Positions 9,474-24,632 of a stretch of DNA of 64,000 nucleotides are shown piece after piece. Origin of the DNA: Chloroflexota bacterium (lineage in GTDB: Bacteria; Chloroflexota; Limnocylindria; Limnocylindrales; CSP1-4); contig JADMIG010000002.1 in the NCBI GenBank assembly GCA_015478725.1, forward strand, positions 121,254-185,253, given 5' to 3'. The stretch's first letter is position 1; every line of letters starts with the position of its first letter. The position numbers and the translations under genes were made by a program. The notes beneath the pieces are model-generated. The model saw only the letters and a program-made list of their open reading frames with translations, did no database searches and had not been told where the DNA came from.

Positions 9474-9711
9474 AGCCGCGATCAAATCCCACCACTCGGG
9501 GGGACACCGCTTCCGCGCCGCCTCGCGAGCGCGTGCGCAGGCTGACGAGGTTCGGGTGAGGATCTCGACAGACCCACGCTCGATGCCGCTCCCAGCCGGT
9601 CGTGGTGCGTCGCCTGCATCGCGGGGGCGGGCTGGCACCGTAGCCGTTGGCATTGACGCAGTCGCGTGCACCCAAGCCGTCGGACCTCGACCGCTGCCGG
9701 AACGGCTCCGC

Positions 9712-9720
9712 TGCTAGAAT
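9712..9720 (+). promoter_or_regulatory. Candidate extended -10 of the nuo operon
   Basis: TGCTAGAAT is an extended -10 (TGnTAGAAT). The nuoA start lies 45 bases (ATG) or 96 bases (TTG) further on, so a real 5' leader is expected here. There is no strong -35. The next promoter-like sequence is far downstream, so this may drive the whole nuo cluster. Confidence 0.4.
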
Positions 9721-9815
9721 TCCGGCGCGGGCCGCCGTCCTTTGGGCGCCCGCGCCCGAAGCCCATGAGCCGCACGGCGGCCGGCGGTGCCGGACGCGCC
9801 CGGAGTGAGGTTCCG

Positions 9816-10172
9816 TTGACTGCCCTCTGGTACATCGTCGGTTTCGCCTTCGCCGGTGTGTCGTTCGTCTTCCTCACGATCGGCATGGCGTGGCTCATCT
9901 CCCATCGGAATCGCGGCGACGTCCACAAGGGCCTGCCGTACGAGAGCGGCATCGACACCTACGGCGACACCCACGCCCGGTTCGGCCTGAGCTTCTACAT
10001 CTACGCCCTGCTGTTCGTCGCCTTCGACATCGAGGTGATCTTCATCTACCTCTGGGCGCTCGTGTTCCGCGACCTGCTCCTCGGCGGCTTCGTCAGCATG
10101 CTCATCTTCGTGGCGATCCTCCTCCTCGGCCTCGGCTATGCGTGGCGCAAGGGGGTGCTCACGTGGCAGTGA
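9816..10172 (+). CDS. nuoA: NADH-quinone oxidoreductase subunit A
   Basis: NuoA is a small membrane subunit at the junction of the peripheral and membrane arms of complex I. Three membrane helices are visible (residues about 2-27, 63-85 and 88-110), with the conserved [19 protein letters not shown] loop near 38-56 and the acidic [14 protein letters not shown] helix. The TTG at 9816 is preceded by GGAGTGAGG and gives the usual 118 residues. An ATG at 9765 would add a 17-residue Ala/Gly/Arg tail and has no good ribosome site. It is the first gene of the nuo cluster, and its stop overlaps the nuoB GTG. Confidence 0.92.
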
Positions 10173-10879
10173 CAGACCCGCGCCGCGGCCTCGCCGGCCC
10201 CGGCGCTGCCCTCGTCGCGGCCGAGGGAACGGATGCCCCCAGCGCGCCGATCGTGGTCCCGAACACCCTGTGGCAGTCGAGCGACCCGCTCGCCTACGAC
10301 GGTGGGCGACCGTCGGACATCACCCACCTCGCGGAGTTCGAGGCGTCCGGCGTCGGCGCCCGGGACGACGCCCGCTGGGGCGGCGCCCTCGAGGTCATCC
10401 CGACGAAGGCGGACTATGTGCTCGACCTCCTCCGGGCGAACAGCCTCTGGCCGCTCCTGTCCGGCCTCGCCTGCTGTGCGATCGAGATGATGTCGGCGGC
10501 GACGAGCGTCAACGACATGGACCGCTGGGGGATGTTCCCGTTCCGCGCGAGCCCGCGCCAGGCGGACGTCCTCATCGTCGCCGGGACGTGCACGACGAAG
10601 ATGGCCGGCCCCCTCGTCCGCCTGTGGGAGCAGATGCCGGAGCCCAAGTGGTGCGTCGCGATGGGCGACTGCACGTGTTCGGGCGGCCGCTACAAGCGGA
10701 GCTACTCGACGATCCAGGGGATCGACCGGATCATGCCCGTCGACGTCTACGTCCCCGGCTGCCCGCCGCGGCCGGAGGGGCTCATCTACGGGATGATGAA
10801 GCTCCAGCAGATCGTCAAGGACCGCCGCGGCCACTGGCCGGAGCGAGCCATCGGCCCGACCGTGCCGGACGGCGTCTAG
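10169..10879 (+). CDS. nuoB: NADH-quinone oxidoreductase subunit B
   Basis: NuoB carries the terminal 4Fe-4S cluster N2, which hands electrons to quinone. The ligands are all present: [11 protein letters not shown] near residues 94-104 (the tandem cysteine pair), [10 protein letters not shown] near 139-148, and [10 protein letters not shown] near 194-203. At 236 residues it has an N-terminal extension of about 50 residues (Ala/Pro-rich, then [14 protein letters not shown]) relative to short NuoB proteins; its role is unclear. GTG 10169 overlaps the nuoA stop. The quinone-side chemistry of this complex I therefore looks normal, in contrast to its electron-input side. Confidence 0.95.
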
Positions 10880-10882
10880 GCG

Positions 10883-11434
10883 ATGGACCGAGCGCTCAAG
10901 CGCCGCCTCGAGGTGCGGTTCGGCGATCTGCTCGGTGGCCCGGTCCACCAGCGCCACGACGAGACGGAGATCCGGATCCCACCGGCGGAGGTCCCGGCCG
11001 TCCTCCGGGCGCTCCACGACGAGCCGGAGTTCCGATTCACGTTCCTCGGCGACCTGTGCGGGGTGGACACGGGCACGGAGATGCAGGCGGTCTATCACCT
11101 CTGGAGCGAGACCTCGCCGGACTGGCTCCGCGTCGTCGCCGTCGGCCTGTCGCGGGACGATCCGCGCGTCCCGTCGGTCACCTTCCTGTGGAAGGGTGCC
11201 GAGTGGCAGGAACGCGAGGCCTATGACATGTTCGGCATCACGTTCGAGGGGAACCGGGACCTCCGGCGGATCTACATGCCGCCCGACTACACGAGCTTCC
11301 CGCTCCGCAAGGACTTCTTCCTGCCTGACGATGCGTCACGCTCGCCGGGCGGCGGCGTCCGCCACATGGAGCAGGTCCACGCGCCGGTGAACGCCACCCC
11401 GGGAGCGGTCGTCCGCCGCTCGACGGCCGGCTGA
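10883..11434 (+). CDS. nuoC: NADH-quinone oxidoreductase subunit C
   Basis: A 183-residue 30-kDa-type subunit of the complex I peripheral arm; it has no cofactor. The signature WKGAEWQEREAYDMFGITFE (about residues 104-123) is intact, followed by RDLRRIYMPPDYTSFPLRKD. LGDLCGVDTG near 54-63 is the usual start of the fold. It is a separate gene rather than a NuoCD fusion. It begins three bases after the nuoB stop and ends nine bases before nuoD. The last 25 residues are poorly conserved. Confidence 0.95.
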   Translation: MDRALKRRLEVRFGDLLGGPVHQRHDETEIRIPPAEVPAVLRALHDEPEFRFTFLGDLCGVDTGTEMQAVYHLWSETSPDWLRVVAVGLSRDDPRVPSVTFLWKGAEWQEREAYDMFGITFEGNRDLRRIYMPPDYTSFPLRKDFFLPDDASRSPGGGVRHMEQVHAPVNATPGAVVRRSTAG

Positions 11435-11443
11435 CCCAGCGCC

Positions 11444-12682
11444 ATGACGACGACCGCAGACGACCGTCGCACGCCGCGCCACGCCTCGGCCGACGATCCG
11501 CGAGTCATGCTCGACGAGCAGATCGGCGTCTTCGAGCCGGTCCCGCCGTATCCGCCACGCACCGAGCGGGAGGCGGAGTTCTACACCCTCGGCGACGGCG
11601 AGATGTTCATCAACATCGGACCACAGCACCCGTCGACGCACGGCGTCCTGCGGATCGTCCTCAAGATCGACGGGGAGCAGGTCGTGGATCTCGACCCGGT
11701 CCTCGGCTACCTCCACCGCGGAGTGGAGAAGCTCTGCGAGAACGCCGACTACCACCAGGCGATCTGCTACACGGACCCGCTCGAATATGTGAGCTCGCTC
11801 TTCATGGAGTGGGCGCCGGTCATGGCCTTCGAGAAGCTCCTCGACGTCGAGGTTCCGCGACGAGCCGAGTACATCCGGGTCCTCACCGGCGAGCTCAACC
11901 GGGTGATGAGCCACATCATGTTCGTCGGCTGGATGGCCCTCGACCTCGGCGGTCTCACCCCGATCCTGTGGGGCTTCATCGAACGCGACGAGATCGTCGA
12001 GATGCTGGCGAGCATCGCCGGTCAGCGGATGCTCTTCAACTACTTCCGGATCGGCGGGGTCAACGGCGACCTGAACCACGACTTCATGAGCCGTCTCGGG
12101 CGCTGGATGAGTCACGCGACGAGCCAGCTCGACACGGAGCTCGCCCTCCTCAACGAGAACGAGATCTTCGTCCGCCGGATGCGCGGCCTCGGCGTCGTCG
12201 ATCGGGAGACGGCGATGCGGATGTGCCTGAGCGGCCCGAACCTGCGCTCCACCGGCGTCCCGTTCGACGTCCGCCGGGCTCATCCGTACAGCGTCTACCC
12301 GGAGCTCGACTTCGACGTGCCGACCCGGAGCGAGGGCGACTGCCTGGCGCGGTACCTGCTCCGGATGGACGAGGTGCGCCAGAGTCTCCGCATCATCGAC
12401 CAGTGTCTCCATGAGATGCCGGACGGGCCGATCATGGCGAAGCTCCCCCGGCTTCTCCGCCCGCGACCCGGTCGGGCCTACGCGGCGGTCGAGGGACCGC
12501 GCGGCCAGCTCGCGACGTATGCGATGAGCGACGGAACGGATCAGCCGTTCCGGATGCGGATCCACGACCCGAGCTTCGTCAATCTCCAGACCGTGGGCCT
12601 CGTCATGCCGGGCCACCTCATCGCCGACACGATGGCGGTCATGGCCTCCCTCGATCCGATCATGGGCGGGGTGGACAAGTGA
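11444..12682 (+). CDS. nuoD: NADH-quinone oxidoreductase subunit D
   Basis: A 412-residue 49-kDa-type subunit that lines the quinone pocket with NuoB. The conserved NIGPQHPSTHGVLRIVLKID motif starts near residue 55 and includes the histidine that contacts the quinone head group. LGYLHRGVEKLCENADYHQA and FNYFRIGGVNGDLNHDF follow. The hydrogenase-like C-terminus lacks the Ni cysteines, as expected for NuoD, and it ends MASLDPIMGGVDK. Length is normal. Its stop overlaps the GTG start of nuoH. Confidence 0.96.
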   Translation: MTTTADDRRTPRHASADDPRVMLDEQIGVFEPVPPYPPRTEREAEFYTLGDGEMFINIGPQHPSTHGVLRIVLKIDGEQVVDLDPVLGYLHRGVEKLCENADYHQAICYTDPLEYVSSLFMEWAPVMAFEKLLDVEVPRRAEYIRVLTGELNRVMSHIMFVGWMALDLGGLTPILWGFIERDEIVEMLASIAGQRMLFNYFRIGGVNGDLNHDFMSRLGRWMSHATSQLDTELALLNENEIFVRRMRGLGVVDRETAMRMCLSGPNLRSTGVPFDVRRAHPYSVYPELDFDVPTRSEGDCLARYLLRMDEVRQSLRIIDQCLHEMPDGPIMAKLPRLLRPRPGRAYAAVEGPRGQLATYAMSDGTDQPFRMRIHDPSFVNLQTVGLVMPGHLIADTMAVMASLDPIMGGVDK

Positions 12683-14025
12683 CCGCCGCCGTCGGCCGCA
12701 CCTGGACGAGGCTGACGATCGCCGGCAAGGTGGTCTTCGTCGCGGTCCCGCTGCTCCTCGCCCTGCTTGTGCCGCTCGGTATCGCCATCGTCCTGTGGGG
12801 CGGCGCGATCGTCGACTTCCTCGCCGCGAATCTCCCGCTCGTCCGGTTCGCCGTGGCCGCGACGGCCGTCCTCCTCATGACCGTCCCGACGGCCTTCCTC
12901 ATCATCTACATGGAGATGAAGGTCATCGCCCTCATGAACCTGCGGGTCGGTCCGGATCGCGTGGGTCCGTTCGGATCCGCCCTGTCCGTCGTCCACGGGC
13001 TCAAGGTCCTCATGAAGGAGGACTTCACGCCGACCGGGGTGGACCCACTCGTCTTCACGTGGGCGCCGGTGGTCGTCTACCTCGCGAGCGTCATGGCCCT
13101 CCTCGTCATCCCCTTCGGGCCGGGGCTGTTCGGGCAGGGCGACATCAACCTCGCCCTCCTCTACTTCTTCGCGATCGGCGGGCTGTCCGTCGTCGGCCTG
13201 CTCATGGCCGGCTGGTCGAGCTTCAACAAGTACTCGCTCCTCGGCGGACTCCGGTCGGCAGCCCAGGTCGTGAGCTACGAGATCCCGCTCACGCTCTCGG
13301 TCGTCGGGCTCATCCTCCTCGCCGGGACGATGAGCCTCAACCGGATCGTCCTCATGCAATCCGGCTCGGTCCTCGACTGGAACATCTTCCGCCAGCCGCT
13401 CGGGGCGCTCATCTTCCTCATCGCGGCTGCAGCCGAGGCGAACCGGACACCGTTCGACCTCACCGAGGCGGACAGCGAGATCGTCGCGGGCTACGCGACC
13501 GAGTACAGCGGCATGCGGTTCGGCTTCTTCTTCTTCGCCGAATACGTCAACGTCTTCATCATCTCCGCCCTCACCGTGACCCTCTTCTTCGGCGGCTGGA
13601 CGGCACCGCTCGACTGGCCGTGGCCGATCGTCTCCTCGCTCGACCCGGGCAGCCTCGGAATCGGCCTGCTCATCCTCATCGCGATCGTGCCGCTGATCGG
13701 GACCCTCCTCCTGGCCGCTCCGTTCTTCGTCGCCCGAAGCTCGATGCCCGCCTGGCAGGCCCTCGTCATCGGGTTCATCCTCTTCAATCTCCTCGCGGTC
13801 GTCGCGGTGGCCGGCTGGGCGTTTCTCACCTTCGACTGGGTCGCCGGGCTCCTCTGGTTCCTCGGCAAGACGTACGTCTTCGTGTTCACGTTCGTCTGGC
13901 TCCGGGGGACCCTGCCACGGGTCCGCATCGATCAGCTCATGGGTTTCGCCTGGAAGTGGCTCCTGCCTGCCTCGCTCCTCAACCTGTTCGTCACGGCCGC
14001 CGCGATCGTCGTGGTGGGTCGGTGA
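12679..14025 (+). CDS. nuoH: NADH-quinone oxidoreductase subunit H
   Basis: A 448-residue membrane subunit linking the quinone pocket to the proton pumps. It has eight or more hydrophobic segments plus a hydrophobic N-terminal extension (residues 10-45). Conserved loops are visible: MNLRVGPDRVGPFGSALSVV near residues 89-108, EANRTPFDLTEADSEIVAGY (residues about 254-273) carrying the key acidic cluster, and YSGMRFGFFFFAEY. It ends in WLRGTLPRVRIDQLMGFAWK, typical of the family. GTG start overlaps nuoD. It is followed by the NuoI-NuoE fusion gene after 22 bases. Confidence 0.95.
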   Translation: MTAAVGRTWTRLTIAGKVVFVAVPLLLALLVPLGIAIVLWGGAIVDFLAANLPLVRFAVAATAVLLMTVPTAFLIIYMEMKVIALMNLRVGPDRVGPFGSALSVVHGLKVLMKEDFTPTGVDPLVFTWAPVVVYLASVMALLVIPFGPGLFGQGDINLALLYFFAIGGLSVVGLLMAGWSSFNKYSLLGGLRSAAQVVSYEIPLTLSVVGLILLAGTMSLNRIVLMQSGSVLDWNIFRQPLGALIFLIAAAAEANRTPFDLTEADSEIVAGYATEYSGMRFGFFFFAEYVNVFIISALTVTLFFGGWTAPLDWPWPIVSSLDPGSLGIGLLILIAIVPLIGTLLLAAPFFVARSSMPAWQALVIGFILFNLLAVVAVAGWAFLTFDWVAGLLWFLGKTYVFVFTFVWLRGTLPRVRIDQLMGFAWKWLLPASLLNLFVTAAAIVVVGR

Positions 14026-14047: not shown

Positions 14048-14710
14048 GTGAGCCAGCTGCCCGGCCTCGGCATCGTCAAGGGGATGGCGATCACGCTTCG
14101 GCGCTTCTTCGAGCCGAAGGCCACCATCCGCTACCCGGAAGTCGCGGCGACGATCACGCCGAAGTTCCGGGGGCGGCTGCAGCTCCTCTATGACGAATGG
14201 GGCACGCTCAAGTGCGAGACCTGCTTCCAGTGCGCCCAGGCCTGCCCGATCGAATGCATCGACATGGGCGGGACGGACACGAAGGGCCGCTACCACGTCC
14301 ACTGGGGAGCGCCGGAGACGTATGGCGAGCGGCGCGAGGAGTCAGCACTCCGCCGATCCGGGCGGACGGTGCCGGACGAGGCGTACGCCCACTTCGACAC
14401 ACCGGACGGCCTCGCCGCCGTCGACGCGATCCTCGATGCGCACGACCGCGACCCGGCCCGCATGCTCGCGATCCTCGAGGCGACGCAGGCCCGGTTCGGC
14501 TATCTCCCGGTGGCGGCGCTCAAGCGGATCTCCCACGCGACGGGGGCGTGGTACGCGATGATCTACGGCACCGCCTCGTACTACCGTCATCTCCGCTTCG
14601 AGGCACCCGAGGCGGTCGAGCAGGCCGCGGCCGTCGCCCACCACCGGCCGTCGGAGGAGGCGTTCATCGCGGCGCTCGACACCGCGCTCGGACGCCCGGG
14701 ACGGGCCTGA
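14048..14710 (+). CDS. NuoI-NuoE fusion with reduced cofactor sites
   Basis: A 220-residue protein. Residues about 10-80 resemble NuoI (FFEPKATIRYPE, then KFRGRLQLLYDEWGTLK) with one ferredoxin motif, CETCFQCAQACPIEC near 56-70. The second CxxCxxCxxxCP motif of a true NuoI is absent. Residues about 118-185 resemble the helical N-terminal half of NuoE (ILDAHDRDPARMLAILEA, FGYLPVAALKRISHATG, MIYGTASYYRHLRFE). The thioredoxin-like half of NuoE, with its four 2Fe-2S cysteines, is missing. So one protein appears to replace two subunits while keeping at most one cluster. Start GTG 14048 fits the conserved N-terminus. It is part of the nuo cluster, directly upstream of the NuoF-like gene. The fusion is seen in the sequence; its role is inferred. 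Confidence 0.8.
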   Translation: MSQLPGLGIVKGMAITLRRFFEPKATIRYPEVAATITPKFRGRLQLLYDEWGTLKCETCFQCAQACPIECIDMGGTDTKGRYHVHWGAPETYGERREESALRRSGRTVPDEAYAHFDTPDGLAAVDAILDAHDRDPARMLAILEATQARFGYLPVAALKRISHATGAWYAMIYGTASYYRHLRFEAPEAVEQAAAVAHHRPSEEAFIAALDTALGRPGRA

Positions 14711-14714
14711 CCCG

Positions 14715-16046
14715 ATGACCGAGATCCTCGCGACGCCGGCCACCTGGCCGGCGATCCTCCTTCCGCGCAGTGGAGCGGACGCCGGCGGCGGCACGACCGG
14801 GACGGACGGCGCGGTCGGATCGTTCGCCGGCCTCCGGCGGGCGATCGCCGAGCTCGGTCCGGCCGGGACGATCGCCGCGGTCGTCGCGTCGGGGCTTCGG
14901 GGTCGCGGCGGTGGCGGCTTCCCGACCGGTGAGAAGTGGCGCGCGGCGGCGGCGATGGACACCGGACGGCGCTATGTCGTCGCCAACGGGTACGGGGCGG
15001 ACCCGGCGGTCTCGACGGATCGGACGCTCCTGGAGCGCGCCCCGTCCGCGGTCGTCGAGGGAGCGGCGATCGCCGCCTTCGCGATCGGCGCGGCAGAGGC
15101 GATCATCGCCGTCCGCGCCGAAGCGACCGCCGCGATCTCGGCCCTCGAAGCGTCTATCGCCGCGGCCGAGGCGGCGGGTCACCTCGGCCCCGATGCGATC
15201 GCTCCCGGCCGCGACCTCACGGTCCACGTCCGGACCGTCCAGGGCGCGTACATGCTCGGCGAGGAGACGGTCCTCCTCAAGGCCCTCGAGGGCAAGCGCG
15301 GCCAGCCGGAACAACGCCCGCCCCACCCGACGGAGCGCGGCCTGTTCGGCGCGCCGACCGTCGTCCAGAACGTCCAGACGCTCGCCGCGGTGCCGTGGAT
15401 CGTCCGCCACGGCGCGGAGGCCTTCGCCGCGCTCGGCGGGTCCGCGAGTCCTGGCACGATCCTCGTCCAGGTCCGCGGAGCGGAGCGGTCCGCCATCGCC
15501 GAGATCCCGCTCGGGACCCGGCTCGGCGAGATCGTCGCCCTCGGCGGGCCGGTCACGGCGGGCCACCGACTCAAAGCCGTCCTCGTCGGCGGCCCGTCCG
15601 GTGGACTCCTGCCGGCCGACGCCCTCGACACGCTCTACGACTTCGATCCCCTCCGGCTCGCGGGGGCGCACATCGGTTCGGGGAGCGTCGTCGCGGTCGA
15701 CGATCGGACCTGCGTCGTCGATCTCGCTCGAGTCCTCACCCGGTTCTGCGCCGACGAGGCGTGCGGCAAGACGATCCCGTGCCGGATCGGGACGCGACGC
15801 CTGACGGAGATCGGCGATCGGGTCGTCGGCGGTCGGCCGCGCCCGACGGACCTCCAGCTCCTCGCCGACCTGTCCCACGACATGGTCGAGAGCGCCCTGT
15901 GCGACCACGAGCGCCTGACGACCCTCCCGTACACGAGCGGGATGCGATACTTCCGGGCGGAGCTCGACGACCACATCCTCCGCAGCTCATGCCCCGCCGG
16001 CGTATGCCACCCGATCGCGGTGATCGCCGGCGCCGGGGCCCAGTGA
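14715..16046 (+). CDS. nuoF: Divergent NuoF-like FMN subunit
   Basis: A 443-residue protein of normal NuoF length. The FMN loop GRGGGGFPTGEKW (residues about 62-74), GAYMLGEETVLLKALEGKRG near 181-200 and PTVVQNVQTLA are conserved. Two key sites differ. The acidic NADH/FMN segment, usually NADEGEPGTFKDR, is NGYGADPAVSTDR. The N3-cluster motif, usually SCGKCxPCR, is ACGKTIPCR with the second cysteine replaced by Thr, although an extra Cys lies four residues before the first. The fourth ligand (ALCDHE) is kept, and the C-terminus ends SSCPAGVCHP. It probably binds FMN but may use a different electron donor or cluster geometry. Neighbours are the NuoI-NuoE fusion and the GltD-like gene. Confidence 0.85.
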   Translation: MTEILATPATWPAILLPRSGADAGGGTTGTDGAVGSFAGLRRAIAELGPAGTIAAVVASGLRGRGGGGFPTGEKWRAAAAMDTGRRYVVANGYGADPAVSTDRTLLERAPSAVVEGAAIAAFAIGAAEAIIAVRAEATAAISALEASIAAAEAAGHLGPDAIAPGRDLTVHVRTVQGAYMLGEETVLLKALEGKRGQPEQRPPHPTERGLFGAPTVVQNVQTLAAVPWIVRHGAEAFAALGGSASPGTILVQVRGAERSAIAEIPLGTRLGEIVALGGPVTAGHRLKAVLVGGPSGGLLPADALDTLYDFDPLRLAGAHIGSGSVVAVDDRTCVVDLARVLTRFCADEACGKTIPCRIGTRRLTEIGDRVVGGRPRPTDLQLLADLSHDMVESALCDHERLTTLPYTSGMRYFRAELDDHILRSSCPAGVCHPIAVIAGAGAQ

Positions 16047-16062
16047 GGCAGACCGCGACCCG

Positions 16063-18759
16063 ATGACCGACCTCATCGTCCGCCCCCACGAAGCCCCCGG
16101 CCTGCTCGCCGTCGTGGACACGGTCACGCCTCGCGACGACTCGCTCGCCGAGCGCCTCATCACGACCCAGTCACCGCAGCGACCGCAGTCCGCCCCGGCG
16201 ATCCGTCTCGAGGTGGACGGCCGCCTCATCGAGGGGCGCGAGGGCCAGACGATCCTCGAGGTCTGTCGGGACAACGGGATCGAGATCCCCACCCTCTGCT
16301 ACGAGCCGAAGCTCCCGGGCTTCGGCGCCTGCCGGATGTGCGTCGTGGAGGTCGAGGGCGAGGAGCACCCGCCGATCAGCTGCTCGCAGCGGGCGACGGC
16401 CGGAATGGTCGTCCAGACGCAGACCGAGATGGTCCGCCAGCTGCGGGCGACGAACCTCGAGCTCATCTTCAGCGACCACAACGCGTACTGCCTTCCCCCG
16501 TGCCAGAACAAGTGCCCGAGCCACATCGACATCCCCGGCTTCCTCAAGGCGAACGCAGAGGCGAACTGGCGCGAGTCGACCCGCATCTTCAAGCGGACGA
16601 TCCCATTCCCGTCGGTCCTCGGCCGGGTCTGCCCGGCACCGTGCGAGGAGCACTGCCGGCGCGACGAGGTTGACGAGGCGATCGCCATCCGGGACAGCCA
16701 CCGCTATGCCGGGGACCAGGTGCTCCGGGCGATGCTCGACGAGGGCGTCGATCCGCCGATCCCGTTCGAGCAGCAGCCGAGGTCCGGCCGCCGTGCTGCG
16801 GTCATCGGCTCCGGGCCGGCCGGGATGGCGGCGGCCTATTACCTCCTCCTCGCCGGCCACGACGTGACGGTCTTCGAGCGCGACCCGGCTCCCGGGGGGA
16901 TGCTCCGCTACGGCATCCCGCAGTACCGCCTGCCCAAGGTGGAGGTCCTGGAGGCCGAATACGAGAGCGTCACCCGCCTCGGCGGCGAGATCCGCTGCGG
17001 CCAGGGACTGGGCCGCGACTTCTCGCTCGACGACCTCCAGAACCAGGGCTACGATGCGGTCCTCATCGCCATCGGCTGTTACGACACGAACAAGCTCGGG
17101 ATCCCCGGCGAGGACGCCGACGGCGTCATCGACGGACTCGAATACCTCCAGACGGCAACCCTCGGGCTCGAATACCCCGGCCACCGGGGCACGAAGGTCA
17201 TCGTCATCGGCGGCGGCTTCACCTCGATGGATTGCACCCGGACGTCGATCCGCCAGGGCGCGGCCGAGGTGACCCTCGTCTACCGCCGGGACATGAAGGA
17301 CATGCCGGCCTCCGGCGAGGTCCACGAGGCGATCGAGGAAGGCGCGACGGCGATCTTCCAGGCCGCACCGGTGCGGGTCATCACGGACGCGAAGAACCGG
17401 GTCACCGGGGTCGAGTTCATCCGCAACAAGCTCGGCGAGCCGGACGCCTCGGGACGGCGTCGCCCCGAGCCCGCCCCGGGAACGGAGTTCACCCTGCCGG
17501 CCGACCGGGTCCTCCTCGCCATCGGCCAGGGACCGGATCTCAGCTGGTTCGGACCCGGAAACGAAGGCCTGACCGCGACCAGGCAGCGCCGTCTCAAGGC
17601 CGACGCGGTGACGTTCGAGACCGGGCGATCTGGCGTGTTCGGGACGGGCGACGTGCGGATCGGCGCAGCGACGGTCGTCGCCGCCGTGGCCGAGGGACGT
17701 CGCGCCTCGTACGCCGCAGACGCGTACCTCAAGGGGCTCGACCTCGGGGCAATCAGGACCCGCCAGCAGCTCGCCGAGCCGCAGCCCGAGTTCCTCTCGA
17801 TCGTCCCGTTCACGAGCGAGGTCAAGGAGTCGCGCCACCGCCTCACGGCGATGCCGGCCGAGGCTCGGAACCGCAGCTATGTCGAGTACGAGATCCCGTA
17901 CAGCCCGGCCGAGGCGGTCGCCGAGTCGAGCCGCTGCCTCCAGTGCACGTGCGAGGCCATCGGATTCTGCGACCTCCGTCGCCTCGGCATCGAGTACGGG
18001 ACGACACTCCAAACGCTCGAGCCGGCGTACCACCAGGGAGCCGGCTACCGGAGCGTGACCGAGAACCGCTTCACGGGCTCCAACCACGACTACATCCGCG
18101 ACGACTCGCACGCGTTCATCCTGCGCGAGCCATCACGTTGCATCGACTGCGGCCGCTGCGCCCAGGTCTGCTCGGAGGTGGTCGGGGCGGCCTGCTACGA
18201 CTTCATGCGGATCGGCTTCGACACCCTGGTCACGACGCCGCTCGACATGAGCCTCAACGACACGCCCTGCGTCTCGTGCGGCCGATGCGCAGAGACGTGC
18301 CCGACCGGTGCCCTCATGCCGAAGCCGCGGGTGCTCGAGAAGTACGAGGTTGACGAGAGCCGCTGCATCCTCTGCGGGATCTGCGTGGACGCCTGCCCGT
18401 ACGACGCTCTCCGCGATGGAGCGGACTTCGAGCTCGCCCACACGAGCCGGGCGGACCCGCAGATCGATCTCCTCGCCCTCGCCGCCGTCGACCGCGAGAC
18501 AGAGGTGACGTACATCCGTCGCGAGCGTGACTGGGCCACCCGGGCCCTCGCCGAAGGCCGCTCGACGGCGCCGCGGCTCCTCCCGATGCTGCCGGCAGCG
18601 ATCGCCGCCGGCGGCGTGCCCAACGGCAACGGCCACGCTCACGGCAACGGCCACGCTCACGGCACCGGTCATGGCGCGCCTCTACCCGCCCTCGGCGCGG
18701 GCGCCGTCCCCGGCCCGGCGGCAGACCACGGCGTCGGCACGGCCGGCGGGCACGGCTGA
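16063..18759 (+). CDS. NuoG-like 2Fe-2S / GltD-like flavoprotein / ferredoxin fusion
   Basis: An 898-residue protein in the position of nuoG but lacking the molybdopterin-type domain. Domains in order: a 2Fe-2S ferredoxin domain like the start of NuoG (CYEPKLPGFGACRMCVVEVE, residues about 85-104); a GltD-type Fer4_20 region (CLPPCQNKCPSHIDIPGF near 144-161, CPAPCEEHCRRDE near 189-201); an FAD site (GSGPAGMAAAYYLLLAGHDV near 247-266); an NAD(P)H site (VIGGGFTSMDC near 384-394); and three C-terminal 4Fe-4S motifs (CIDCGRCAQVC, CVSCGRCAETCP, CILCGICVDACP). The tail has GNGHAHGNGHAHG. The GltD/NfnB part normally handles NADPH. With the neighbouring NuoF-like subunit this resembles the Sporomusa-type Nfn (StnBC) pair. 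Function inferred. Confidence 0.85.
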   Translation: MTDLIVRPHEAPGLLAVVDTVTPRDDSLAERLITTQSPQRPQSAPAIRLEVDGRLIEGREGQTILEVCRDNGIEIPTLCYEPKLPGFGACRMCVVEVEGEEHPPISCSQRATAGMVVQTQTEMVRQLRATNLELIFSDHNAYCLPPCQNKCPSHIDIPGFLKANAEANWRESTRIFKRTIPFPSVLGRVCPAPCEEHCRRDEVDEAIAIRDSHRYAGDQVLRAMLDEGVDPPIPFEQQPRSGRRAAVIGSGPAGMAAAYYLLLAGHDVTVFERDPAPGGMLRYGIPQYRLPKVEVLEAEYESVTRLGGEIRCGQGLGRDFSLDDLQNQGYDAVLIAIGCYDTNKLGIPGEDADGVIDGLEYLQTATLGLEYPGHRGTKVIVIGGGFTSMDCTRTSIRQGAAEVTLVYRRDMKDMPASGEVHEAIEEGATAIFQAAPVRVITDAKNRVTGVEFIRNKLGEPDASGRRRPEPAPGTEFTLPADRVLLAIGQGPDLSWFGPGNEGLTATRQRRLKADAVTFETGRSGVFGTGDVRIGAATVVAAVAEGRRASYAADAYLKGLDLGAIRTRQQLAEPQPEFLSIVPFTSEVKESRHRLTAMPAEARNRSYVEYEIPYSPAEAVAESSRCLQCTCEAIGFCDLRRLGIEYGTTLQTLEPAYHQGAGYRSVTENRFTGSNHDYIRDDSHAFILREPSRCIDCGRCAQVCSEVVGAACYDFMRIGFDTLVTTPLDMSLNDTPCVSCGRCAETCPTGALMPKPRVLEKYEVDESRCILCGICVDACPYDALRDGADFELAHTSRADPQIDLLALAAVDRETEVTYIRRERDWATRALAEGRSTAPRLLPMLPAAIAAGGVPNGNGHAHGNGHAHGTGHGAPLPALGAGAVPGPAADHGVGTAGGHG

Positions 18760-18766
18760 GACACGG

Positions 18767-19303
18767 ATGCCCATCCCGAGCACGATCCCGATCATCGGCG
18801 GCACCTGGGACGACCTCCTCTTCGTCCTTTTCGCCGCCATCCTCCTCGTCGCCGGACTGCTCGTGGTGACGATGCGCGACATCATCCGCTGCGGCCTGGC
18901 GATGATCGTCTGCTTCGGCGCCCTCGCCGGGATCTATGTCGTCCTCGGCGCGCCGCTCGTCGCCGGAGCCCAGGTGCTCGTCTACATCGGGGCGATCAGC
19001 GTCCTCGTGCTCTTCGCGATCATGCTCACGGAGAACAAGGCCGCGCCCGCGCGGCTCGTCTTCCAGACCCAGGCCCGGCCGGCCGCGATCGCCTCGATCG
19101 TCCTCGCCGCGATCATCGCCCTGACGGTGTCCGCCACGGACTGGGGGAGCCTCGCGACGCGGGTCCGGAGCGCGACCGAGGACGTCGCGCGAGCGCTCTT
19201 CGCCTCGTTCACCCTGCCGTTCGAGATCGTCAGCGTCCTCCTGCTCGCGGCCGTCATCGGTGGCATCTTCCTCGCCAGGCGCGAGGGCGGCGAGCGCCCG
19301 TGA
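18767..19303 (+). CDS. nuoJ: NADH-quinone oxidoreductase subunit J
   Basis: A 178-residue membrane subunit with five hydrophobic segments. The conserved third helix region [20 protein letters not shown], followed by [13 protein letters not shown] (residues about 51-83), is typical of NuoJ; its pi-bulge couples quinone chemistry to pumping. The ATG at 18767 lies 8 bases after the upstream stop; the open frame continues further back inside the previous gene without homology. The C-terminus is short, ending EGGERP, and its stop overlaps the nuoK GTG. Confidence 0.93.
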
Positions 19304-19611
19304 GCGACAACCTGGACAGCTACCTCATCGTGTCCGGCATCCTCTTCGCGATCGGGACATTCGGCTTCCTCGCCCGGCGGAACGCGATCAGCATGCTCAT
19401 GTCCATCGAACTCATGATCAACGCCGTGAACCTCACGATCGTCGCGTTCGGGTCGTTCATCGAGCCGTTCAGGTCGAACGCTTCGGTCATCGCCATCATC
19501 GTCATGGCGGTCGCGGCCGCCGAGGCGACGGTCGGACTCGCCCTCGTCATCGCGATCTACCGGAACCGGAAGACGCCCCTCGTCGACGAGTACGACTCGA
19601 TGCGGCAATAG
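19300..19611 (+). CDS. nuoK: NADH-quinone oxidoreductase subunit K
   Basis: A 103-residue three-helix proton-channel subunit. The middle helix keeps the two buried glutamates: [20 protein letters not shown] near residues 27-46 and [18 protein letters not shown] near 68-85. Length is normal. It starts with GTG inside the nuoJ stop and ends 22 bases before nuoL. An alternative reading as an MnhC-type antiporter subunit is unlikely given the operon. Confidence 0.95.
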
Positions 19612-19633: not shown

Positions 19634-21595
19634 ATGAACCAGCTCATCCCGCTCATCCCGCTCATCCCGATCATCGGCTTCGCGTTCAGCGCGCTCTTCG
19701 GCCGGCGCCTCCAGGCGCGCTACGGGAAGCCCGCCGCGAGCCTCGTGCCGGTCGGGCTCATCGTGCTCACCTGGCTCATCTCGATGGCGGTCGCGGCGAC
19801 GGCCCTGACCGGCGGCTTCGGCGAGACGGGCGCGAACGTGACGCTCTGGCAGTGGATCCACGCCGGGACCTTCACCGTCGACATCGGGTTCACGGTGGAC
19901 CAGCTGACCGCAGTCCTCCTCATCGTGGTCACGACGATCGGGATGCTCGTCCACATCTACTCGATCGGCTACATGAGTCACGACGGCGGCTACTGGCGGT
20001 TCTTCGCCTACCTCAACCTGTTCATGTTCTCGATGCTCCTCCTCGTCCTCGCCGACAACTTCCTCCTCGTCTTCGCGGGCTGGGAGCTCGTCGGCCTGTC
20101 GAGCTACGCCCTCATCGGCTTCTGGTATCGCCGGCCGAGCGCCGGCCTGGCGGCGAAGAAGGCGTTCATCGTCAACCGCGTCGGGGACGTCGGCTTCGCG
20201 CTCGGGATCATGGCGATCTGGGTGAACACCGGGACGCTCAACATCCGCGTCGCGCTCGAGCGGCTCGGCGCGCTCGACGCGCAGAACCACGGCCTCGTCG
20301 TCGTCATCGCCCTGCTCGTCTTCTGCGGGGCGGTGGGCAAGAGCGCCCAGTTCCCGCTCCACGTCTGGCTGCCCGATGCGATGGAGGGCCCGACGCCCGT
20401 CTCCGCCCTCATCCACGCGGCGACGATGGTGAACGCCGGCGTCTACCTCGTCGCCCGCGTGAATCCGCTGTTCGGCCACGCCCAGGAGGCGATGGTCGTC
20501 GTCGCCGCGATCGGCATCTTCACCGCGATCCTCGCCGCTTCCATCGCGACGACCCAGACGGATATCAAGCGGGTCCTCGCCTATTCGACGCTCAGTCAGC
20601 TCGGTTACATGTTCGCCGCGCTCGGCGTCGGGGCGTGGGCGGCGGCGATCTTCCACCTCATGGCCCATGGCTTCTTCAAGGGACTCCTCTTCCTCGACTC
20701 GGGCTCGGTCATCCACTCCGTGGGCGGCGAGCAGGACATGCGCCGGATGGGCGGCCTGTCGAAGAAGATCCCGGTGACGTACTGGACGATGCTCATCGGC
20801 GCGGTCGCGATCTCCGGCATCCCGCCGCTCGCCGGGTTCTTCAGCAAGGACGAGATCCTCGCCTCCGCGTTCAAGAACGGCTTCCTGTGGGTCTGGGCGG
20901 TCGGCTTCATCGTCGCCGGGATGACCGCGTTCTACATGTTCCGGCTCATCGCCCTCACCTTCTGGGGCGAGAGCCGGGTGGATCCGGCCGTCGAGCCGAC
21001 GATCCACGAGTCGCCGCGCTCGATGACGGTGCCGTTGATCCTCCTCGCGATCCCGAGCGCGCTGCTCGGGATCGCGATCGGCCTGCCGCCCGAGAACGGC
21101 CTCCTCGCGAACTGGCTCCGGCCCGTCTTCGAGAGTACGGTCCGGCTGTCAGGCCGAACCGAAAGCTACTCACTCTTCGGCATCGACGGCGCGCTCCTCC
21201 TCGCGAGCGTCACCGTGGCGGTCGTCGGCATCGCCATCGCCTGGCGGCTCTTCGGCGTCGAGCTCGGCGGCCTCCGCCGGCGGGCCGATCCGGCGCGCGT
21301 CCGGGCGTTAAGCGCCCGTGTCCCGTTCCTCTATCGGGCCTCGCTCAACAAGTGGTGGTTCGACGACCTCTACGACCTGCTGTTCATCCGGATCGGCGGC
21401 CGCGTCGCGGCGGCGATGTGGTGGTTCGACCGGAATGTCGTCGACGGGGCGGTGAACGGCATCGGCACGCTCACGATCGGCGGCGGGCGCGAGCTCCGCC
21501 GGGTCCAGACCGGGCACGTCCAGAACTACGCCCTCGGCATCGCCGTGGGCCTCATCGTCATGGCTGGCTCGTACCTCCTCATCGTCGGCCACTGA
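19634..21595 (+). CDS. nuoL: NADH-quinone oxidoreductase subunit L
   Basis: A 653-residue antiporter-like proton-pumping subunit at the far end of the membrane arm. It has about 16 membrane helices and the lateral helix at the C-terminus. Conserved segments include FVDQ-type FTVDQLTAVLLIVVTTIGML near residues 92-111, the pumping lysine region FCGAVGKSAQFPLHVWLPDA near 231-250, EGPTPVSALIHAATMVNAGV near 252-271, and a KRVLAYSTLSQLGYMFAALG helix. The amphipathic lateral part after residue 560 includes FLYRASLNKWWFDDLYD. The stop overlaps nuoM by one base. Confidence 0.96.
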   Translation: MNQLIPLIPLIPIIGFAFSALFGRRLQARYGKPAASLVPVGLIVLTWLISMAVAATALTGGFGETGANVTLWQWIHAGTFTVDIGFTVDQLTAVLLIVVTTIGMLVHIYSIGYMSHDGGYWRFFAYLNLFMFSMLLLVLADNFLLVFAGWELVGLSSYALIGFWYRRPSAGLAAKKAFIVNRVGDVGFALGIMAIWVNTGTLNIRVALERLGALDAQNHGLVVVIALLVFCGAVGKSAQFPLHVWLPDAMEGPTPVSALIHAATMVNAGVYLVARVNPLFGHAQEAMVVVAAIGIFTAILAASIATTQTDIKRVLAYSTLSQLGYMFAALGVGAWAAAIFHLMAHGFFKGLLFLDSGSVIHSVGGEQDMRRMGGLSKKIPVTYWTMLIGAVAISGIPPLAGFFSKDEILASAFKNGFLWVWAVGFIVAGMTAFYMFRLIALTFWGESRVDPAVEPTIHESPRSMTVPLILLAIPSALLGIAIGLPPENGLLANWLRPVFESTVRLSGRTESYSLFGIDGALLLASVTVAVVGIAIAWRLFGVELGGLRRRADPARVRALSARVPFLYRASLNKWWFDDLYDLLFIRIGGRVAAAMWWFDRNVVDGAVNGIGTLTIGGGRELRRVQTGHVQNYALGIAVGLIVMAGSYLLIVGH

Positions 21596-23151
21596 TGTCG
21601 ATCGCCGCGTTCCCCATCCTCTCGATCGTCACGTTCCTCCCGCTCGCCGGGGCGATCGTCATCGGCTTCCTCCCCCGGAACCGCCCGGATCTCGCCCGCT
21701 GGACGGCGCTCGGCACGTCCGGCCTGGCCTGGCTGTTCAGCCTCCTCCTCCTCGTCGGCTTCCTCCCCGGCCGCCCGGGCGGCGGGTTCCAGTTCGTCGA
21801 GCAGGCGGACTGGATCCCCGCCTTCGGGATCCAGTACAAGCTCGGGGCGGACGGCCTGTCCCTCATCCTCGTCCTGCTCACGACGACCCTGTCGTGGATC
21901 AGCATCCTCGCGAGCTTCGGGCCGATCAAGGAGCGGGTGAAGGAGTACATGATCTCCTTCCTCATCCTCGAGGTCGGGATGATCGGGGTGTTCCTCTCGC
22001 TCGACCTCTTCCTCTTCTACATCTTCTGGGAGGTCGTCCTCGTCCCGATGTACCTCATCATCGGGATCTGGGGCGGGCCGCGCCGGATCTACGCGACGAT
22101 CAAGTTCGTCCTCTACACCCTCGTCGGGTCGCTCCTCATGCTCGTCGCCATCCTCGCCACCGCGTTCACCTACGCGCAGGGTCACGGGGGCTCGTTCGTG
22201 GGGGCGTTCGACTTCATCCACCTCCGCGACTACGCCGCTACCGCCGGCTTCTCGAACACGCTCCAGATGTTCGCCTTCGCCGCGTTCTTCCTCGCCTTCG
22301 CCATCAAGATCCCGATGTTCCCCTTTCACACCTGGTTGCCGGACGCCCACGTGGAGGCGCCCACGGCGGGCTCGGTCATCCTCGCCGGTGTGCTCCTCAA
22401 GCTCGGCGGCTACGGGTTCATCCGGTTCGCCCTGCCGTTGTTCCCTGAGGCCGCCCGGACGTACGGGCCGTGGATCATCGCCCTGAGCCTCATCGCCATC
22501 ATCTACGGAGCGATCGTGGCCCTCGTGCAACCGGACCTCAAGAAGCTCGTCGCGTACAGCTCGGTGAGCCACATGGGGTTCGTCACCCTCGGGATCTTCA
22601 TCTTCCAGCCGCAGGGGATGAACGGCGCGATCCTCCAGATGGTGAACCACGGGCTCATCACCGGCGCCCTGTTCCTCCTCGTCGGCGTCATCTACGAACG
22701 GACCCACGACCGGACGATCGCGAAGATGGGCGGCCTCGCATCGCTCACTCCGGTCTACGCGGCGACCTTCGGGTTCTTCGTGTTCGCCTCCGTCGGCCTG
22801 CCCGGCCTGTCCGGATTCGTCGGCGAATTCCTCGTCTTCGTCGGGGCGTGGGCATACAGCCCGGTCGTCGCGGCGATCGCCGCGTTCGTGATGATCTTCG
22901 CGGCCGGATACCTCCTCTGGATGTTCCAGCGCATGTTCACCGGCGACGTGTCCGAATTCTTCGCCGGCCTCGGCCACCACATCACGGACCTTCGGCCGGT
23001 CGAGATCGTGACGCTGGTCCCGCTCGGGACCCTCGTCGTCGTCTTCGGCCTCTTCCCGGGCCTCATCCTCGACCTCGTCTCGGGCACGGTGAACTCCGTG
23101 CTCGGCAGCGTCGGGGCGGCGACCGCGATCCACCTCCTCCCCTGGCAGTAG
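21595..23151 (+). CDS. nuoM: NADH-quinone oxidoreductase subunit M
   Basis: A 518-residue antiporter-like pump with about 14 membrane helices. Signature stretches are LGADGLSLILVLLTTTLSWI near residues 82-101, FAIKIPMFPFHTWLPDAHVE near 238-257 (pumping lysine) and APTAGSVILAGVLLKLGGYG next to it, then KLVAYSSVSHMGFVTLGIF. The ATG at 21595 shares a base with the nuoL stop. The long open frame upstream is simply the other frame of nuoL. Length and motifs are normal. Confidence 0.96.
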   Translation: MSIAAFPILSIVTFLPLAGAIVIGFLPRNRPDLARWTALGTSGLAWLFSLLLLVGFLPGRPGGGFQFVEQADWIPAFGIQYKLGADGLSLILVLLTTTLSWISILASFGPIKERVKEYMISFLILEVGMIGVFLSLDLFLFYIFWEVVLVPMYLIIGIWGGPRRIYATIKFVLYTLVGSLLMLVAILATAFTYAQGHGGSFVGAFDFIHLRDYAATAGFSNTLQMFAFAAFFLAFAIKIPMFPFHTWLPDAHVEAPTAGSVILAGVLLKLGGYGFIRFALPLFPEAARTYGPWIIALSLIAIIYGAIVALVQPDLKKLVAYSSVSHMGFVTLGIFIFQPQGMNGAILQMVNHGLITGALFLLVGVIYERTHDRTIAKMGGLASLTPVYAATFGFFVFASVGLPGLSGFVGEFLVFVGAWAYSPVVAAIAAFVMIFAAGYLLWMFQRMFTGDVSEFFAGLGHHITDLRPVEIVTLVPLGTLVVVFGLFPGLILDLVSGTVNSVLGSVGAATAIHLLPWQ

Positions 23152-23168: not shown

Positions 23169-24632
23169 ATGGCCTGGGCCGACCTCGTCACCATCGCCCC
23201 GCTGGCCGGCGCGATCCTCGTCGCCGCCGCGATCGTCGTCGCCGATATGATCCGGCCCGGTGACCGGACGGCAGCGCTCATCGTCAGCTTCGCCGGCCTC
23301 GCCATCGTCGCCGCGCTCACACTGCTGACGGGGCGGACGCCGGCAGACGCCTTCGCGGGTGCCTACCGGGTCGACGCCCTCACCACCTTCCTCGACCTCC
23401 TGTTCGTCTCGATCGTCGCGTTGACGATCCTCTTCGCCCCGGACTACCTCGAGCCGCGTGGCCTGCCGGTCGCCGAGTTCGCCGCGGTCCTCGTCTTCGC
23501 GATGACGGGCGCGATGCTCATCTCCGCCTCGGCCGACCTCCTCGTCCTCTTCCTCGGCCTCGAGCTCATGGTCCTGCCGGGCTACCTCCTCGCCGGGTAC
23601 GCGAAACACGACGCCCTGTCCACCGAAGGGGCGATCAAGTACTTCCTCCTCGGCTCGTTCAGCTCGGCGATCTTCCTCTTCGGACTCGCCTTCATCTGGG
23701 GTCTCAGCGGGTCGACCCGGATCGCGGACGTGGCCGCCCATCTGTCGTCCATGGTGAGCGGCTCGGCGCCATTCTCACCGGGCCTCGCGATGGGCCTCGC
23801 CTTCCTCACGACCGGCGTTGCCTTCAAGATCGCCGCGGTCCCGTTCCATTACTGGACGCCGGACGCGTACCAGGGTTCGCCGACCCCCATCACGGGCTAC
23901 CTCTCGGTGGGCCCCAAGGTGGGAGCCTTCGCCCTCATCCTCCGGCTCTTCGTCGGCGCGCTCGATCCGGTGAAGGCGGACTGGCTCGTCGTCATCGTCG
24001 TCCTCGCCGCCCTCACGATGACGCTCGGCAACCTCGTGGCCCTCACCCAGGACAACGTGAAACGGATGCTCGCCTACAGCTCGATCGCCCACACCGGGTA
24101 CATGCTCGTCGGCCTCGCCGCGTACGCCGCCGGCCGGATCGAAGGGATCGAGGGGCTGCTCTACTACGCGGCCGCCTACACGTTCATGAACCTCGGCGCG
24201 TTCGCCGTCGTCGCCGCTCTCCAGCGACGGCCCGGCGTGACGAGCCAGCTCGACACGTTCGCCGGCCTCGGGCGGCGGGAGCCCATCCTCGGGATCCTCA
24301 TGACCCTGTTCATGCTGTCCCTCACCGGGATCCCTCCCACGGCGGGCTTCTTCGCCAAGTTCAGCGTGATCCTGCCCGCCATCCAGGCCGGTGGCTGGCT
24401 CACGGCGCTCGCGGTCCTCGCCGTCCTCAATGCCGCCGCGGCGGCGTTCTACTACCTCCGCGTCGTCGTGTACATGTTCATGCGCGAACCGGCCGGCGAG
24501 GCGGACCGGTCGCCCCACAGCTCGCTCGTCTGGACGGGCCTGTGGGCGACGACCGTGCTCACGATCGTGCTCGGACTCTTCCCCGGCCCGCTGCTCGCGA
24601 TCGTCGGCGACGCCGCACGCGCCTTGCCATAG
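23169..24632 (+). CDS. nuoN: NADH-quinone oxidoreductase subunit N
   Basis: A 487-residue antiporter-like pump and the last gene of the nuo cluster. It has 14 hydrophobic helices. Conserved stretches include ELMVLPGYLLAGYAKHDALS near residues 138-157, FKIAAVPFHYWTPDAYQGSP near 219-238 with the pumping lysine, KRMLAYSSIAHTGYMLVGLA near 298-317, and SLTGIPPTAGFFAKF near 382-396. Length is typical. It is transcribed towards the TlpA-like gene, whose stop lies about 50 bases away, so a bidirectional terminator may lie in 24633-24685, although I see no strong hairpin. Confidence 0.95.
   Translation: MAWADLVTIAPLAGAILVAAAIVVADMIRPGDRTAALIVSFAGLAIVAALTLLTGRTPADAFAGAYRVDALTTFLDLLFVSIVALTILFAPDYLEPRGLPVAEFAAVLVFAMTGAMLISASADLLVLFLGLELMVLPGYLLAGYAKHDALSTEGAIKYFLLGSFSSAIFLFGLAFIWGLSGSTRIADVAAHLSSMVSGSAPFSPGLAMGLAFLTTGVAFKIAAVPFHYWTPDAYQGSPTPITGYLSVGPKVGAFALILRLFVGALDPVKADWLVVIVVLAALTMTLGNLVALTQDNVKRMLAYSSIAHTGYMLVGLAAYAAGRIEGIEGLLYYAAAYTFMNLGAFAVVAALQRRPGVTSQLDTFAGLGRREPILGILMTLFMLSLTGIPPTAGFFAKFSVILPAIQAGGWLTALAVLAVLNAAAAAFYYLRVVVYMFMREPAGEADRSPHSSLVWTGLWATTVLTIVLGLFPGPLLAIVGDAARALP

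Follow-up and report, generated by a model that had tools for sequence, protein, structure and literature searches.

A Chloroflexota complex I locus in which NuoI appears to be divided between a NuoE fusion and a StnC/NfnA-like subunit

The complex I locus

The stretch of DNA analysed, referred to here as the window, is 64,000 nucleotides long and carries thirteen complex I genes in one run, in the order A-B-C-D-H-[NuoI half 1 + NuoE half]-F-G-J-K-L-M-N. The genes are listed below with the features found within two of them, the evidence for each being given in brackets.

9666-10172, + strand: nuoA, start uncertain (NF005839, E 7e-26)
10160-10879, + strand: nuoB, start uncertain, subunit of the N2 cluster, with the CC...C...C ligands present (open reading frame, aligned relatives)
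10883-11434, + strand: nuoC (TIGR01961, E 5e-33)
11444-12682, + strand: nuoD, about 26 residues deleted around TIGR01962 positions 290-315 (two-piece match)
12679-14025, + strand: nuoH (NF004741, E 9e-95)
14048-14710, + strand: fusion of NuoI half 1 with the helical half of NuoE (family and PDB matches, homologues, AlphaFold model)
14072-14269, + strand: NuoI half 1 (residues 9-74), with the N-terminal helix, an RFRG-type segment and motif 1 (TIGR01971, PDB matches)
14408-14605, + strand: helical half of NuoE, the thioredoxin [2Fe-2S] domain being lost (PF01257, model confidence, structural matches)
14715-16046, + strand: NuoF/HydB-like subunit with an altered FMN/NADH motif and an incomplete N3 motif (profile match, motif comparison)
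16063-18759, + strand: StnC/NfnA-like (G-type) subunit (PDB and profile matches, invariant motifs, structure fit)
16201-16425, + strand: [2Fe-2S] domain of the G-type subunit, C79, C90, C93 and C107 (PF13510, E 3.5e-21; invariant cysteines)
16480-17736, + strand: GltD-type domain with two [4Fe-4S] sites (C143/147/151 and C190/194/198) and FAD and NAD(P)H motifs (profiles, Z 28-34 to Nfn, Stn, GltD and DPD chains)
18139-18300, + strand: dicluster motifs A (C693-C703) and B (C736-C746), homologous to StnC/NfnA (PDB alignment, conservation)
18328-18456, + strand: NuoI half 2, with motif 2 (C768, C771, C774, C778) and the NuoI tail FELAHTSR (TIGR01971)
18767-19303, + strand: nuoJ, start uncertain (open reading frame, relatives)
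19300-19611, + strand: nuoK (open reading frame, relatives)
19634-21595, + strand: nuoL (TIGR01974, 728 bits)
21595-23151, + strand: nuoM, start approximate (open reading frame, relatives)
23169-24632, + strand: nuoN, start approximate (open reading frame, relatives)

The Q-module and membrane subunits by which the NDH-1 superfamily is recognised (NuoB, C, D, H, J, K, L, M and N) are all present, and NuoB, D, H, L, M and N are intact. In the window and in all split-type sets sampled, the NuoD match to TIGR01962 is broken in two, about 26-30 positions being missed (from 283/289 to 312/316), whereas canonical NuoD gives a one-piece match, and a NuoD tree separated 22 split-type from 9 canonical sequences by a single branch with 98/96 support; no such separation was resolved in a NuoB tree. 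The NuoH of the window (12679-14025) carries some 70 extra residues (near 316-388) compared with its relatives in family f4.

The two halves of NuoI and their distribution

The open reading frame at 14048-14710 begins with GTG at 14048 and encodes 220 amino acids, its stop extending to 14710. A preliminary description had proposed that a NuoI part with one ferredoxin motif is joined here to the helical half of NuoE alone, with the second 4Fe-4S motif and the 2Fe-2S cysteines of NuoE missing, and this is borne out on every point. Residues 9-78 match TIGR01971 positions 1-66 of 121 (E 1.1e-13), the best PDB matches of this part are NuoI chains (E 6e-11), and the protein has one CxxCxxCxxxCP motif (C56, C59, C62, C66). 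NuoE is represented by residues 121-186, which correspond to its N-terminal helices (PF01257 positions 2-62 of 145, E 3e-7), and these are placed at high confidence by the AlphaFold model (pLDDT 84-97); model residues 121-188 superimpose on the HydC, NfnC and StnA chains with Z of 11-13 and an rmsd of 1.0-1.4 A over 64-69 residues, the VIA-align rows for the model spanning the NuoE half only. The second NuoI motif and the NuoE cysteines are absent from this frame, and a hidden second motif was sought in every frame of 14200-14720 and not found. That search, together with the conservation of the fusion, rules out a frameshift or an assembly error; the fusion is taken to be real and free of sequencing error because homologues occur in 138 of 151 genomes of the class.

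For a separate nuoI, the curated cut-off of TIGR01971 (113 bits) was used, a single-chain NuoI being defined by two CxxCxxCxxxCP motifs in one polypeptide. No gene above the cut-off occurs in the genome to which the window belongs, where the best match reaches 51.7 bits and the halves, at 51.7 and 44.6 bits, lie on two proteins; the full nuoI elsewhere that could have overturned the preliminary description was thus looked for and not found. The second-best match, on contig C6 of the same genome, was considered as a full nuoI and rejected, as it adjoins weak NuoD- and NuoL-like genes. The site (G000:C6:45258-51985) falls outside the window and combines NuoD-like (161 bits) and NuoL-like genes with a dicluster protein of weak similarity to NuoI; the set resembles that of a membrane complex of the group-4 hydrogenase type or a relative of it. 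No nuoI above the cut-off was found in 149 of the 151 class genomes; the two that have one are G069 and G079, the latter carrying a canonical set beside the split set. In a sample of the phylum NuoI exceeded the cut-off in 36 of 61 genomes, with none among the seven of the class.

The half of NuoI that the fusion lacks is found on a neighbouring protein. Residues 756-798 of the 16063-18759 protein match TIGR01971 positions 71-114 (E 2.7e-15), the NuoI tail (FELA..SR) is kept behind motif 2, and about 100 residues remain after this stretch. Between them the two proteins account for a single NuoI, interrupted in the linker that separates motif 1 from motif 2. Against a model of canonical NuoI built from 30 Chloroflexota proteins (L161-L190), half 1 scored 65.5 bits (positions 13-80) and half 2 scored 46.2 bits (positions 94-137), and when joined in silico they gave a single-domain match of 117 bits. 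Decoy joins of half 1 reached 71 bits with motif A, 84 with motif B and 76 with half 1 itself, and shuffling half 2 with C, P and G fixed left a mean of 12 bits and a maximum of 26. Identity to one canonical NuoI (L164) was 26/63 for half 1 and 18/44 for half 2. To judge from these matches, it is nearly certain that the last Fe-S motif of the 16063-18759 protein is the second half of NuoI and that NuoI is split, not truncated. It had been supposed that the electron path to NuoB must either be shorter or use clusters in the 16063-18759 protein; the second option is supported, the last Fe-S motif of that protein corresponding to NuoI half 2, and the path therefore need not be shorter.

The genomes with fusion matches in GTDB include Candidatus Limnocylindrales, Limnocylindrus and Aquidulcis, and the class is accordingly described here as Limnocylindria-like. 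Motif 1 with its four cysteines is kept in all of 120 fusion proteins, one motif in each, although some genomes were counted twice and the number of genomes is smaller; within L061-L140 exactly one motif was present in 80 of 80. Wherever at least 4.6 kb of downstream DNA was available half 2 was encoded (49 of 49 loci). The F and G genes and half 2 were found directly in 43 of these, and in four of the other six a scaffold NN gap or a single-base slip breaks the frame ahead of half 2. Gene fission or frameshifting between motif B and half 2, considered for the draft genomes behind L088, L091, L095 and L105, is not proposed, three of the breaks lying at NN gaps and one being likely due to a missing base.

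The same fusion is also present outside the class, and a search of the phylum revealed full-length fusions in five further families (f13, f21, f33, f35 and f38). The f21 genomes span 3-14 Mb, look like Ktedonobacteria and have a separate gene run, nuoB-fusion-nuoF-G; in two genomes (G211 and G232) the remaining genes of the split set lie in an A-C-D-H cluster and a J-K-L-M-N cluster, and a canonical operon with full NuoI is present as well. Two complete complex I sets were seen in the Ktedonobacteria-like loci L142, L155 and L191-L196, the split-type set being spread over three gene clusters. The genes of the split set are distributed over two clusters in family f3, B-D-fusion-F-G and C-H-J-K-L-M-N, the second of which was seen with A in L203. 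No nuoI was found between H and J in the f3 clusters or in the complete second complex I sets of other Chloroflexota. The G-type subunit with NuoI half 2 is present in two tandem copies in L144 (G170), and G187 has two fusion genes (L148 and L149), with no F and G genes adjoining L149 in the DNA read.

The input arm

Residues 47-780 of the G-type subunit align to NfnA of Caldicellulosiruptor (9bov_A, 541 bits) and to StnC of Sporomusa ovata (8oh5_C, 470 bits), and the [2Fe-2S] domain, the GltD-type FAD/NADPH domain and the A/B dicluster that mark this family occur in that order. The GltD-type domain was modelled confidently, with Z of 32-34 to NfnABC/StnC and 28-31 to GltD/DPD chains; the overall rmsd of the model to the multi-domain chains, near 10 A, is a consequence of domain placement. 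Among 37 sequences of the class the FAD- and NAD(P)H-binding glycines, the YRR segment and the Fe-S cysteines, those of motif A included, are invariant. The third motif, half 2, is absent from the solved StnC/NfnA relatives, which have motifs A and B, and the FdhF-like C-terminal domain of StnC is absent from the window protein, the 8oh5_C alignment ending at residue 780 of 898; the position of that domain is taken by NuoI half 2, which follows motif B at a distance of 22 residues. In StnABC, electrons from NADPH pass to FAD in StnC and on to the cluster chain, and the FdhF-like domain has been described as a non-functional electron-transfer branch (PMC10482914). By analogy, a branch that is a dead end in Stn may have been turned into the entrance to the quinone module.

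The subunits at which NADH would conventionally enter are degenerate by comparison. The NuoF of the window has NGYGADP (14985-15005) for the canonical NADESEP and CGKTIPC (15762-15782) for the N3 motif CGKCxPC, the second cysteine being a threonine, so that neither NADESEPG nor the four N3 cysteines of a canonical NADH-fed complex I are found; the glycine-rich FMN part is kept, and FMN may still be bound. NADESEP is altered in some form in all split-type NuoF sampled, whereas the N3 cysteine is lost from most of families f1, f2 and f4 but kept by f3 and the lineages outside the class. As for NuoE, none of the 120 fusion proteins retains all four [2Fe-2S] cysteines, and the cluster ligands of a StnA-type subunit are likewise absent. 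A thioredoxin part carrying the first cysteine pair only persists in 78 of 101 class fusions and has been lost from 23, including that of the window; all 19 fusions from outside the class or from L159 are without NuoE cysteines. The [2Fe-2S] site of NuoE is thus gone everywhere and N3 has been lost in part of the tree, a pattern that would be expected if electrons no longer enter at NuoF. PntB was present in all 15 class genomes tested, and NADH could therefore in principle be exchanged for NADPH.

Electron path, alternatives and significance

Few parts of complex I are as conserved as NuoI, whose two clusters connect the input arm with the quinone site. In 2[4Fe-4S] ferredoxins, NuoI included, each cluster is held by three cysteines of one motif and the fourth of the other. 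The reading favoured here, at odds of about three to one, is that the window encodes a rebuilt but complete complex I with a StnC/GltD-type input, in which NuoI is split over two polypeptides and its clusters are assembled between the chains. Motif 1 and the N-terminal helix would come from the fusion, motif 2 and the NuoI tail from the C-terminal end of the G-type subunit, and the halves would form a single 2[4Fe-4S] domain where the two subunits touch. Because each NuoI cluster draws its ligands from both motifs, N6a and N6b would be expected to be ligated across the chains. Given the kinship of the G-type subunit with StnC/NfnA, electrons would most likely enter as NAD(P)H, probably NADPH, at its GltD-like FAD and would pass through its Fe-S clusters and the split NuoI to N2 in NuoB, quinone being reduced at the end of the wire and protons being pumped by the membrane arm. 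NuoF and the remnant of NuoE may be kept mainly as a scaffold in the lineage of the window. The split at the level of homology, its conservation, the lack of another nuoI and the decay of the NuoE and NuoF sites are observed directly, and cross-chain cluster assembly, the NADPH donor and the scaffold role of NuoF are what we infer from the genes. The strongest argument that sequence offers for the pairing comes from the fourth cysteine, which each half invariably retains although it has no partner there. The feasibility of such an arrangement is supported by designed half-ferredoxins (semidoxins), which are reported to dimerise and bind two [4Fe-4S] clusters (PMC12648291). Single-chain AlphaFold models, in which NuoI half 1 and the entire Fe-S stretch of the G-type subunit (motifs A and B among it) had low confidence, speak neither for nor against the assembly. 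The fuller proposition, that an obligatory natural ferredoxin domain is split between subunits with reciprocal ligation, and that a complex I fed by NADPH has replaced the canonical NADH enzyme in nearly the whole class, is held with rather less assurance and is put only slightly above even chances.

A different view accepts the split of NuoI but has NADH enter at the FMN of NuoF, with the GltD domain serving transhydrogenation or electron confurcation as in Stn and Nfn. NuoF adjoins the fusion in nearly every locus with its glycine-rich FMN loop present, lineages outside the class retain all N3 cysteines, and both sites are used by StnABC (PMC10482914). However, the change of NADESEP in every sampled split-type NuoF, the missing N3 cysteine in most of the lineage of the window and the failure of any NuoE half to retain four cysteines all speak against it, and this view is considered unlikely. 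A slightly less probable alternative holds that half 2 and motif B form an ordinary dicluster ferredoxin within the G-type chain, half 1 being a leftover with one cluster or none that docks to NuoB/NuoH. The 22 residues between motif B and half 2 and their joint match to Fer4_7 are in keeping with this, as is, in relatives outside the class, a joint match of motif B and motif 2 to TIGR01971 positions 41-111. It would, however, orphan motif A, the partner of B in StnC and HydA relatives, despite its invariant cysteines; nor does it account for the four half 1 cysteines kept in 120 of 120 proteins, for the 117 bits of half 1 with half 2 against 84 for half 1 with motif B, or for the retention of the NuoI tail behind motif 2. 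That the fusion is a degenerate or mis-sequenced gene pair, the complex being non-functional or using a separate NuoI, might be suggested by the many NuoE and NuoI ligands missing from the frame, but it is already contradicted by the present data: the fusion recurs through the class and beyond it, the other frames hide no motif, no second nuoI exceeds the cut-off, and NuoB, D, H, L, M and N are intact.

With the divided, NADPH-fed complex I as the preferred reading, its place among known systems can be considered. It shares with the canonical 14-subunit complex I (NuoA-N) the Q-module subunits NuoB, C, D and H, membrane subunits J-N, the NuoI sequence of the halves and the operon context. It differs in that NuoI, a single chain (TIGR01971) in the canonical enzyme, is divided between two chains, NuoE is a helical half only, the FMN and N3 sites of NuoF are altered, a StnC-like protein that has no molybdopterin-enzyme-like domain stands in for NuoG, and NuoD is missing about 26 residues. 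The G-type subunit over residues 47-780, a NuoF like StnB and a NuoE half like StnA are common to it and to StnABC (Sporomusa ovata, 8oh5) and NfnABC (9bov, 9n5u), but the window lacks the FdhF-like domain and a ferredoxin tail on the NuoF-like subunit, its G-type subunit carries a NuoI half, and the module is part of a complex of the kind that sits in the membrane and reduces quinone. With the HydABC bifurcating hydrogenases it has in common the NuoF- and NuoE-like HydB and HydC and the A/B dicluster of HydA, whereas the hydrogenase domain is absent and the NuoE [2Fe-2S] site lost. A 2[4Fe-4S] ferredoxin domain made from two chains is the feature shared with the semidoxins (PMC12648291), but those are designed homodimers of 28 residues, whereas here two different natural complex I subunits would be involved, their assembly being deduced. 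The preliminary description had extended to the fusion itself; the split NuoI, the StnC/GltD-type input module, the degenerate NuoF site and the conservation in the class and further afield go beyond it.

A survey of complex I variants published in 2025 mentions fused C/D and B/C/D subunits, and 'NuoI' and 'Chloroflex' occur nowhere in it (PMC12361115). Searches of the open-access literature yielded no report of a split NuoI, of a NuoI-NuoE fusion or of complex I in Limnocylindria or Ktedonobacteria. The split-NuoI set would appear to be a new variant of complex I, as it falls outside the definitions of single-chain NuoI, of the canonical NADH-fed enzyme and of StnABC, and it probably works like complex I with a Stn-type entry.

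If this is true, the central wire of complex I tolerates interruption, with nothing but subunit assembly to keep it in one piece, and there would be a natural counterpart of the half-ferredoxin stage that has been proposed in ferredoxin evolution. Annotation that demands full-length NuoE and NuoI would call such genomes complex-I-deficient. In the Ktedonobacteria-like lineages, where a split complex I coexists with a canonical one, the two can be compared experimentally. The suggested shift of entry from FMN in NuoF to a GltD-type FAD would alter how NADPH is coupled to respiration in abundant uncultured bacteria of freshwater and soil.
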